A DNA stretch of 64,000 nt from Nocardioidaceae bacterium (GTDB taxonomy: Bacteria > Actinomycetota > Actinomycetes > Propionibacteriales > Nocardioidaceae). The stretch is taken from the NCBI GenBank assembly GCA_018672315.1, contig CP076053.1, forward strand, positions 2,219,827 through 2,283,826, given 5' to 3'. Of the stretch, positions 8,119-12,535 are shown one piece after another. Under the pieces are notes generated by a model. It ran no database searches, had not been told where the DNA came from, and saw only the letters and a program-made list of their open reading frames with translations. A program made the translations under genes and the position numbers. How positions within the stretch are numbered: the stretch's first letter is position 1; every line of letters begins with the position of its first letter.

Positions 8119-8169
8119 GCGAGTCGCTCGAGCAGGTCTGAGCCTCCCGCGGTGCGGCATGCTCCTGGC

Positions 8170-9000
8170 ATGGAGCAGCTGAGCGGGAGCCGTTGGACGC
8201 GCATCGTCGAGAGCGCCGGCGAGCTCGTCGTCGGACTCGACTTCGACGGGGTGCTGGCGCCGATCGTGGACGACCCCGAACGCGCGGTCATCCACCACCG
8301 GGCGCCGGCCCTGCTGGCCAGGCTCGGAGCTCGCGTGCGCGCCATCGCCGTCATCACCGGTCGACCTGCCGGTCAGGCCCTGGCCCTCGGCGGACTCGAG
8401 GCCGTGGGTGAGCAGGTGCGGGCGTCGGGCGGTGTGCTGCGGGTGCTGGGCCAGTACGGCAACGAGCGGTGGAGCTCCGAGGAGCCCGTCGTCGTGACCC
8501 CCGATCCGCCCGCCGGCGTCGCGGCCCTCCTGGACGAGCTCCCCGCCCTGCTCGCCGACGCCGACGCCTCCGGTGCCTGGGTCGAGGAGAAGGGTCTTGC
8601 GGTCGGCGTGCACACCCGGCGGCTGCAGGACGGCGCCGCGGCGTACGACCGCCTCGAGGGCCCGTTGCGCGAGGCGGCCGAGCGCCACGGCCTGCACCTC
8701 GAGCCGGGCCGCATGGTGCTGGAGCTGCGTGCCCCGGGGGCCGACAAGGGCGATGCGGTGCGCGAGGCGGTGACCGACCACGACGCCGGGGCGGTCCTCT
8801 ACGCCGGGGACGACCTGGGCGACGTGCCCGCCTTCGACGCCGTCGAGGCGCTCGCGGGCGAGCAGCACCTGCCGGGCTTCCTCGTCTGCTCGGGATCGGG
8901 CGAGCAGCAGGCCCTCGTGGGACGAGCCGACGTCGTCGTGGAGGGCCCCGACGGGGTCATGGACCTTCTGGAGCGTCTCGCCGAGGCGATCGGCGCGTGA
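8170..9000 (+). CDS. otsB: Trehalose-6-phosphate phosphatase
   Basis: HAD-family phosphatase converting trehalose-6-phosphate to trehalose. HAD motif I DFDGVLAPI carries the nucleophile Asp about 20 residues from the start; then VITGRPA (motif II), GADKGDAV (Lys of motif III) and YAGDDLGDVPAF (acidic motif IV). 276 residues from the ATG at 8170, chosen because CATGCT lies six bases upstream, the leaderless pattern seen across the window. A GTG at 8152 would add six residues. Confidence 0.93.
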   Translation: MEQLSGSRWTRIVESAGELVVGLDFDGVLAPIVDDPERAVIHHRAPALLARLGARVRAIAVITGRPAGQALALGGLEAVGEQVRASGGVLRVLGQYGNERWSSEEPVVVTPDPPAGVAALLDELPALLADADASGAWVEEKGLAVGVHTRRLQDGAAAYDRLEGPLREAAERHGLHLEPGRMVLELRAPGADKGDAVREAVTDHDAGAVLYAGDDLGDVPAFDAVEALAGEQHLPGFLVCSGSGEQQALVGRADVVVEGPDGVMDLLERLAEAIGA

Positions 9001-9074
9001 CCGGCGGGTGACCTCGGTCTCGCATGTCGGTCTCGACGTGCGCATCGTGAGACACCTGCCTAGCATTGGGCTTG

Positions 9075-9215
9075 CTCATCGAGAGGGGCAGAGGGATACG
9101 GCCCGCTGAAGCCCCGGCAACCGCCCGATCGACGTCCACGCCAGAGTGGGGCGCGTCGAGGGGAAAGGTGCCAAGTCCGTCTCGTCACCGAAGGTCGGTC
9201 GGCGGGAAAGATGAG
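9075..9215 (+). ncRNA. SAM-I (S-box) riboswitch
   Basis: The segment carries the S-box core. P1 pairs CTCATC (9075-9080) with GATGAG (9210-9215); between them are GAGAGGGGCAGAGGGA, the GAAGCCCCGGCAACC block, and AAAGGTGCCAAGTCCG. The pattern fits class SAM-I rather than SAM-IV. The ribosome binding site of the next gene (AGGAGG, 9216-9221) directly abuts the 3' strand of P1. When SAM closes P1 the site would be occluded, so translational control is plausible. No terminator stem with a U-run is visible between aptamer and start. A TAGCAT hexamer at 9061-9066 could be the -10 element. Confidence 0.9.
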
Positions 9216-9227
9216 AGGAGGCCCTCC

Positions 9228-10499
9228 TTGAGCACCCTCACCGCCCCCGAGAACACCGGGCTCGACCTGCGCCCGGGCGCGTTCGGCAACGCCACGGCAC
9301 TGACGTGCCGCGAGTGCGGGCACCAGCGCGAGCTGGGTCCGTTCTACGCCTGCGACGAGTGCTTCGGCCCGCTCGAGATCGCGTACGACCTGCCGCGCCT
9401 GACCCGGGGCGACATCGCCGCCGGGCCCGCGAACATGTGGCGCTACCGCGAGCTGCTGCCGGTGCCCACCGACATCACGTCCTCGCCCAACATGGAGGCC
9501 GGCTTCACCCGTCTCGTCGGCGCGGGCAACCTCGCCCGTGAGCTCGGCATGCGCTCGCTGCACGTCAAGGACGACTCCGGCAATCCGACGCACTCCTTCA
9601 AGGACCGTGTCGTCGCCGTCGCCCTCTCGGCGGCCCGCGAGTTCGGCGCGAAGGTCTTCGCGTGCCCCTCGACCGGCAACCTCGCCAACGCCGTCGCCGC
9701 CGCCGGTGCGCGCGCCGGCATGCGCACGGTCGTCTTCATCCCCGAGAACCTCGAGCGACCCAAGATCCTCACCACCGCGGTCTACGGCGGCACGCTCGTG
9801 GCCGTCCGCGGCAACTACGACGACGTCAACCGGCTGGCCGGCGAGATCGCCGGCGAGGAGGAGGGCTGGGCGTTCGTCAACGTCAACGTGCGCCCCTTCT
9901 ACGCCGAGGGCTCCAAGACGCTGGCGTACGAGATCGCCGAGCAGCTGGGCTGGAGGCTGCCGAAGCAGATCGTCATCCCCGTGGCGTCCGGCTCGCAGCT
10001 GACGAAGATCGACAAGGGTTTCGCCGAGCTCATCGAGCTCGGTCTGGTCGAGGCCGACGAGTACCGCATCTTCGGCGCCCAGGCCGAGGGCTGCTCCCCG
10101 GTCTCGCAGGCCTTCCGTGACGGGCACCAGGTCGTCCGCCCGGTCAAGCCCGACACCATCGCCAAGTCGCTGGCCATCGGCAACCCGGCGGACGGCCCGT
10201 ACGTGCTCGACGTCGTGCGTCGCACCGGTGGGGCGGTCGCGGACGTCACCGACGAGCAGGTCAAGGACGGCATCCAGCTGCTGGCCCGCACCGAGGGCAT
10301 CTTCGCCGAGACCGCGGGCGGGGTGACCGTGGGCGTGCTGAAGAAGCTCGTGGAGTCCGGTCAGCTCGACCCCGACGCCGAGACCGTCGTGCTCAACACC
10401 GGCGACGGCCTGAAGACCCTGGACGCGATCGGCGACCGGGTGGGCCCGTCGGCGACGATCGACCCGTCGTACGCGCAGTTCGCCCGCGAGGTGCTCTGA
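9228..10499 (+). CDS. thrC: Threonine synthase
   Basis: PLP enzyme converting O-phosphohomoserine to threonine. An N-terminal zinc-ribbon-like CRECGHQRELGPFYACDECF precedes the PLP domain; the PLP lysine is Lys125 in SGNPTHSFKDR. SGSQLTKI and NTGDGLK are further family blocks. The start is the TTG at 9228, six bases after AGGAGG and just after the riboswitch; an upstream in-frame start would translate the aptamer. 423 residues, normal for the actinobacterial form. SAM control of a threonine enzyme suggests a role in balancing homoserine flow between threonine and methionine. Confidence 0.93.
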   Translation: MSTLTAPENTGLDLRPGAFGNATALTCRECGHQRELGPFYACDECFGPLEIAYDLPRLTRGDIAAGPANMWRYRELLPVPTDITSSPNMEAGFTRLVGAGNLARELGMRSLHVKDDSGNPTHSFKDRVVAVALSAAREFGAKVFACPSTGNLANAVAAAGARAGMRTVVFIPENLERPKILTTAVYGGTLVAVRGNYDDVNRLAGEIAGEEEGWAFVNVNVRPFYAEGSKTLAYEIAEQLGWRLPKQIVIPVASGSQLTKIDKGFAELIELGLVEADEYRIFGAQAEGCSPVSQAFRDGHQVVRPVKPDTIAKSLAIGNPADGPYVLDVVRRTGGAVADVTDEQVKDGIQLLARTEGIFAETAGGVTVGVLKKLVESGQLDPDAETVVLNTGDGLKTLDAIGDRVGPSATIDPSYAQFAREVL

Positions 10500-10525
10500 G
10501 GCGGGACCTCGCACGAGGCCCCTGA

Positions 10526-10584
10526 GACGGGATTGGCCGGAAGCACATCTCACGAGTGAGCGTGCCTCCGGCCAGAACCCCGTC
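10526..10584. terminator. Long hairpin after thrC
   Basis: A long interrupted stem: GACGGG pairs near the base with CCCGTC, GGCCGGA with TCCGGCC, GCAC with GTGC, and CTCAC with GTGAG around a GA tip. There is no U-run, as is usual for GC-rich actinobacterial terminators. It lies 27 bp after the thrC stop. The rest of the gap 10500-10720 shows no convincing gene. Confidence 0.65.
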
Positions 10585-10720
10585 GCACCCACAGGGCTCC
10601 CGCTCAGCCTGACCGGTGCCGTCACGGACGGTCAACGGTTGCGGTCGAGGTCGGGCCCACCGGCGGGACAGAAGGGGACCAAAGGCCCGTACGCACATGT
10701 CGGACGCCCCGCGACGCGGG

Positions 10721-10747
10721 TTTGCACTCGACCATGCCGAGTGCTAG
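10721..10747. promoter_or_regulatory. CIRCE operator 1 (HrcA) overlapping a promoter
   Basis: TTGCACTC, nine bases, GAGTGCTAG: a close match to the CIRCE consensus (TTAGCACTC-N9-GAGTGCTAA), the binding site of the heat-shock repressor HrcA. TTGCAC (10722-10727) and TAGAAA (10745-10750) are 17 bases apart and could be the -35 and -10 elements, so HrcA binding would block the promoter. Confidence 0.88.

Positions 10748-12535
<1,788 letters not shown>

Follow-up and report, generated by a model that had tools for sequence, protein, structure and literature searches.

A SAM-I riboswitch upstream of a threonine synthase-like gene

The window, the whole analysed stretch of 64,000 nucleotides from a Nocardioidaceae genome, carries on its forward strand a trehalose-phosphatase gene (8152–9000; TIGR00685, 96 bits against a cut-off of 68), a SAM-I (S box) riboswitch aptamer (9073–9217), a metM-like gene that starts with TTG and encodes 423 amino acids (9228–10499), and groEL (10910–12535; TIGR02348, 825 bits against a cut-off of 582). 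The aptamer was identified by cmscan of the whole window as a match to RF00162 of 74.2 bits (E 1.6e-15; gathering threshold 44.4 bits), which spans model positions 1–108 and is not cut off, and which is the single Rfam match at gathering level in the window; SAM-IV gave no gathering-level match there. It is also the only RF00162 match in the whole genome, a single contig of 3.6 Mb that is 99% complete. Scoring above the gathering threshold over the full model, the RNA is a SAM-I aptamer. A reading made from the sequence alone (hereafter the sequence-only reading) had placed a SAM-I riboswitch at 9075–9230, right to a few bases; assignment by a covariance model to a group outside the SAM families, the outcome that it had named as speaking against it, was not obtained.

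As read from the sequence and the cmscan alignment, P1 is formed by CTCATC (9075–9080) and GATGAG (9210–9215), and is abutted by the Shine-Dalgarno (SD) motif AGGAGG (9216–9221), which is placed alike in most related leaders. Six bases separate the motif from the start codon TTG (9228–9230), so that both elements lie where the sequence-only reading had seen them. According to the MFE fold, the SD motif can pair with the bases running up to the TTG in a small hairpin (9216–9228), which may have a functional role. The folding energy of the entire leader is no better than that of shuffled sequences (z -0.87; 39 of 200 shuffles equally good) and was dropped as proof of structure; the evidence for the aptamer is thus the covariance model and conservation. 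A terminator scan found no terminator-like site on the forward strand of the leader, its sole site being on the reverse strand (9228–9216), and a scan for sigma-70 promoters found none. The SD motif set against the 3' side of P1, together with a forward strand free of terminator-like sites, is the arrangement of direct translational control.

The compact translational layout proposed from the sequence alone is backed by comparison of 81 leaders. A canonical SD motif and a start codon could be placed by script in 68 of these, and 63 of the 68 motifs start 1–4 bases short of where the aptamer model ends. The remaining 13 leaders belong to a Kribbella type and show, at the equivalent place, a stretch resembling GAGGGG or GAGGAGGG. 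A hairpin between SD motif and start (-3 kcal/mol or lower) occurs in all nine leaders with a TTG start, the window included, in 11 of 66 with ATG and in five of six with GTG, and the rare TTG start may be tied to this hairpin. By eye, leaders L100, L101, L109, L113, L114, L115, L132, L133 and L134 have terminator-like stretches and no SD motif at P1. The switch mechanism may differ between metM lineages.

The gene behind the riboswitch groups with MetM-like proteins

The protein encoded at 9228–10499 is a PLP enzyme with a match to Pfam PALP, and scores 273 bits against the NCBIfam thrC model TIGR00260 (cut-off 167). Because of these two matches, an annotator's label for the gene would be thrC. 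Its predicted structure is confident (pLDDT 88.8) and has the threonine synthase fold, with top matches that name only threonine synthases. Since the thrC model is passed and the fold is that of threonine synthase, sequence and fold leave the reaction unsettled. The genome has another thrC, as the sequence-only reading had suggested checking, in a separate hom-thrC-thrB cluster 3' of homoserine dehydrogenase and 5' of homoserine kinase. This copy encodes 365 amino acids, is 33% identical to the window protein over the matched part and also passes TIGR00260 (282 bits).

In a tree of 84 rows, a chosen subset that comprises 16 of the 80 closest loci plus other sets, the window protein falls within a clade of 71 rows behind a branch with support of 100/100, and the 13 ThrC-like rows outside it include the genome's clustered thrC copy. 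Several ThrC-like rows are long-branched, so that relations among them are unsure. The clade is called MetM-like by the company of SAM-I and of metO, a gene for a ThiS-family sulfur carrier, the tree having been calculated without the characterised MetM sequence of S. albulus. Judged by its sequence, the window protein is of the MetM group and stands apart from ThrC; its gene neither groups with thrC nor adjoins hom and thrB. The protein would synthesise homocysteine from O-phosphohomoserine. The target named in the sequence-only reading, thrC, agrees with the TIGR00260 match, but the protein groups with the MetM-like clade and a separate ThrC is present. The suggestion in the same reading of a methionine-feeding homoserine branch in which the enzyme works is supported by the second thrC and by the placement in this clade.

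Distribution of the riboswitch and metO among relatives

A sample of 119 genomes of the phylum contained 60 places, in 58 genomes, that match the window protein at E 1e-50 or better. These split into 44 MetM-like genes (at least 49% identity and more than 370 bits, the window gene included) and 16 lower-scoring places (33–41% identity), the latter being the ThrC-like hits within E 1e-50, with ThrC genes below this threshold outside the count. RF00162 matches were counted as upstream if they shared the strand of the gene and lay between 60 bases inside the matched part and 600 bases before it. By this measure, a SAM-I riboswitch precedes 24 of the 44 MetM-like genes versus none of the 16 ThrC-like hits. 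Of the 20 MetM-like genes that lack it, those of G017 and G056 begin at a contig end, and upstream DNA is also scarce for one or two of the 16 lower places. With a MetO profile built from eight seeds, metO was detected in 30 of the 44 MetM-like loci; among the other 14, L129 has just 88 bases downstream. MetX-like hits were found in seven of the 44 genomes with metM versus 35 of the 75 without, at a cut-off of E 1e-40, chosen because no genome, controls included, passes 500 bits.

The closest loci, the best 80 of 353 and by title nearly all Propionibacteriales, all have an RF00162 match above gathering at metM, and in 76 of these 80 metO lies 3' of metM. A whole-genome search of 30 relatives found metM in 27, with metO beside it in 24 of the 27. 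Within 4 kb on each side of metM, a trehalose-phosphatase relative is present in 64 and a groEL match in 15 of the best 80 loci. The window shares both neighbours with its relatives, but its groEL begins 410 bases past metM and metO is missing. In two Mumia loci, TPP riboswitches were observed in this neighbourhood on the reverse strand (L023, 8493–8601; L025, 7722–7829).

A metM-like gene without metO

The spacer at 10500–10909 occupies the position that metO has in relatives. The MetO profile had no hit within the window, and a candidate metO remnant in the spacer was rejected, as tblastn matches were at chance level only; the metM-like gene of the window thus has no adjoining metO. The genome contains two genes of the ThiS family, one of CysO type, located between a JAB-domain gene and a CysM-type gene, and one encoding a MoaD-like protein of 109 amino acids. 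The CysO-type protein matches the MetO profile strongly (E 5.7e-36). A relocated metO elsewhere in the genome was likewise rejected, since the ThiS search returned only the CysO type and the MoaD-like gene, the latter without a MetO-profile hit. The CysO-type protein of L011 ends in GGAC, not GG; trimming may be required, for which the neighbouring JAB protein is a candidate. MetX gave no match above 30 bits in this genome (best match 30 bits) and MetA was not found.

The sulfur donor of MetM is reportedly thiocarboxylated MetO. Besides the window, metO is missing beside metM in L062, L068, L087 and L093, which form one clade, and in L151 and L161, so that absence beside metM is found at four places on the tree including the window, of which that of L151 is weakly supported. 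In the genome of the window, with no metO, the sulfur would most likely come from the CysO carrier or from free sulfide.

Residue 205 of MetM, which corresponds to window codon 9840–9842, is Gly in the window. Among 107 order-level sequences, all 100 that have metO carry Ser here, and the seven that lack it carry another residue; residue 209 has a weaker link to metO in the same set. Phylum-wide, residue 205 can also be A, T, G, M, V or I in the presence of metO, and 10 rows have Ser but no adjacent metO. Residue 205 was therefore rejected as a general mark of the carrier, holding just in the 107-row order-level set, and given this variation it is a lead, not a rule. It is conceivable, though we hold it doubtful, that MetM has lost its own carrier here and in three other Propionibacteriales lineages and takes sulfur from CysO, with the parallel change of residue 205 marking the carrier contact. 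If true, one carrier protein would serve both cysteine and methionine, the methionine branch still being under SAM control. Lineages without metO offer a natural experiment on the sulfur carriers open to MetM.

Proposed regulation and alternative explanations

We consider it likely that the SAM-I riboswitch provides feedback on MetM, which would make homocysteine from O-phosphohomoserine for methionine and hence for SAM. For this we infer that the RNA binds SAM and that the ligand switches expression off. When SAM is plentiful, the aptamer would be bound and P1 locked; with the SD motif flush against P1, ribosomes could not load and MetM would fall. When SAM is scarce, P1 would open and MetM would be made. 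The odd pairing of thrC with SAM would then be ordinary feedback, because by the published route the gene would belong to the methionine-making branch. In favour of this explanation are the RF00162 match, unique in the genome, its position at the ribosome-binding site, the placement of the protein in the MetM-like clade beside a separate hom-thrC-thrB cluster, the recurrence of SAM-I and metO around metM in relatives, the lower share of genomes with MetX among those with metM, the failure to find MetA or a MetX match above 30 bits in this genome, and the published precedents for a SAM riboswitch on metM and for direct translational control by SAM-I. We count against it that unconstrained folding does not favour P1, that 20 of the 44 MetM-like genes show no SAM-I upstream, that seven genomes with metM also have MetX, that the window gene has no metO, that the protein also passes the thrC model and is predicted to have the threonine synthase fold, and that a cyanobacterial relative is reported to be mainly a threonine deaminase. 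More broadly, genes labelled 'threonine synthase' that follow a SAM riboswitch in this phylum would be better read as part of methionine synthesis, which bears on annotation and on metabolic models.

Both the TIGR00260 match and the predicted threonine synthase fold would suit a true second threonine synthase repressed by SAM, whether to save O-phosphohomoserine, for instance, or to adjust threonine and methionine together. We regard this as unlikely, as a thrC is already present in the hom-thrC-thrB cluster, the tree separates the window gene from the ThrC-like rows, the gene of its relatives is accompanied by metO and SAM-I, and it is hard to see what the cell would gain by lowering threonine synthesis when SAM is high. 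It is very unlikely in our estimate that homocysteine is made by transsulfuration from O-phosphohomoserine, a use that plants make of this substrate, through one of the Cys/Met-metabolism PLP enzymes, and that the window gene has another role. The genome has two candidates, L005 and L006, strong members of this family (PF01053; 346 and 270 bits), but both stay below the curated cut-offs of all 25 top-ranking NCBIfam models listed for them, and the genome's only SAM-I riboswitch is located on the window gene, not on L005 or L006.

Feedback on MetM by occlusion of the SD motif also has to be weighed against a switch of opposite direction. The first bases of the aptamer, TGCTCA (9073–9078), are complementary to TGAGCA in the start region (9229–9234), and this alternative to P1 is common among related leaders. 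Without SAM, the 5' P1 strand (GCUCAU) would pair with the start region (AUGAGC; UGAGC in the window), and P1 formed on SAM binding would free the start. When folded without constraints, 58 of 81 leaders prefer the pairing between the start region and the 5' P1 strand to P1 itself; P1 has a mean probability of 0.18 over the 81, and openness of the start codon is 0.62 with P1 forced versus 0.27 without. A G precedes P1 in 72 of the 81 leaders and is associated with an AGC second codon (counts 68, 4, 3 and 6; p 5e-5, with kinship ignored), but similar leaders account for four of the six double exceptions (L065, L066, L073, L082), and related rows are counted repeatedly. A chance match is moreover likely given the P1 strand of SAM-I and the Met-Ser starts, the folding program is blind to SAM and to tertiary contacts, and several distant metM leaders seem, by eye, to be of terminator type with no start-region pairing. 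As it would be metabolically senseless for SAM to switch on a gene that contributes to its own supply, we judge this inverted logic highly improbable.

Comparison with known systems

The CysO-CysM route of actinobacteria, known from work on Mycobacterium tuberculosis, yields cysteine. Its likeness to the present genome lies in the adjoining JAB, CysO-type and CysM-type genes; it differs in that its product is cysteine, whereas here CysO may additionally serve MetM.

MetM is described, in PMC12172450 citing Hasebe et al. 2024 (doi 10.1128/aem.01247-24), as a homocysteine synthase acting on O-phosphohomoserine, whose gene is preceded in S. albulus by a SAM riboswitch. The locus resembles this MetM/MetO route of Streptomyces in having a threonine-synthase-like enzyme beside a SAM riboswitch, with metO downstream in most relatives, and differs from it in that metO was found neither at the window locus nor, as far as the searches reached, in the rest of the genome. 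A cyanobacterial relative that is 51.6% identical to MetM by the BLAST of the paper is reported in PMC12172450 to be mainly a threonine deaminase. In S. lividans TK24, PMC8079986, a re-annotation, gives RF00162 before the two-gene unit SLIV_16930-SLIV_16925, labelled threonine biosynthesis. The two loci are alike, on this account, in having RF00162 before a gene with that kind of label, but a two-gene unit stands there and a single gene in the window; SLIV_16930-SLIV_16925 are presumably metM and metO. SAM-I riboswitches with direct translation attenuation have been described before (Barrick and Breaker 2007, PMC2258182), and there the ribosome-binding site lies, as here, at the 3' side of P1, although the SD motif is inside P1 there, whereas that of the window starts just past the six core P1 pairs. 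Set beside these systems, a SAM-I riboswitch on metM is of a known kind, and the form without metO is the unusual part.
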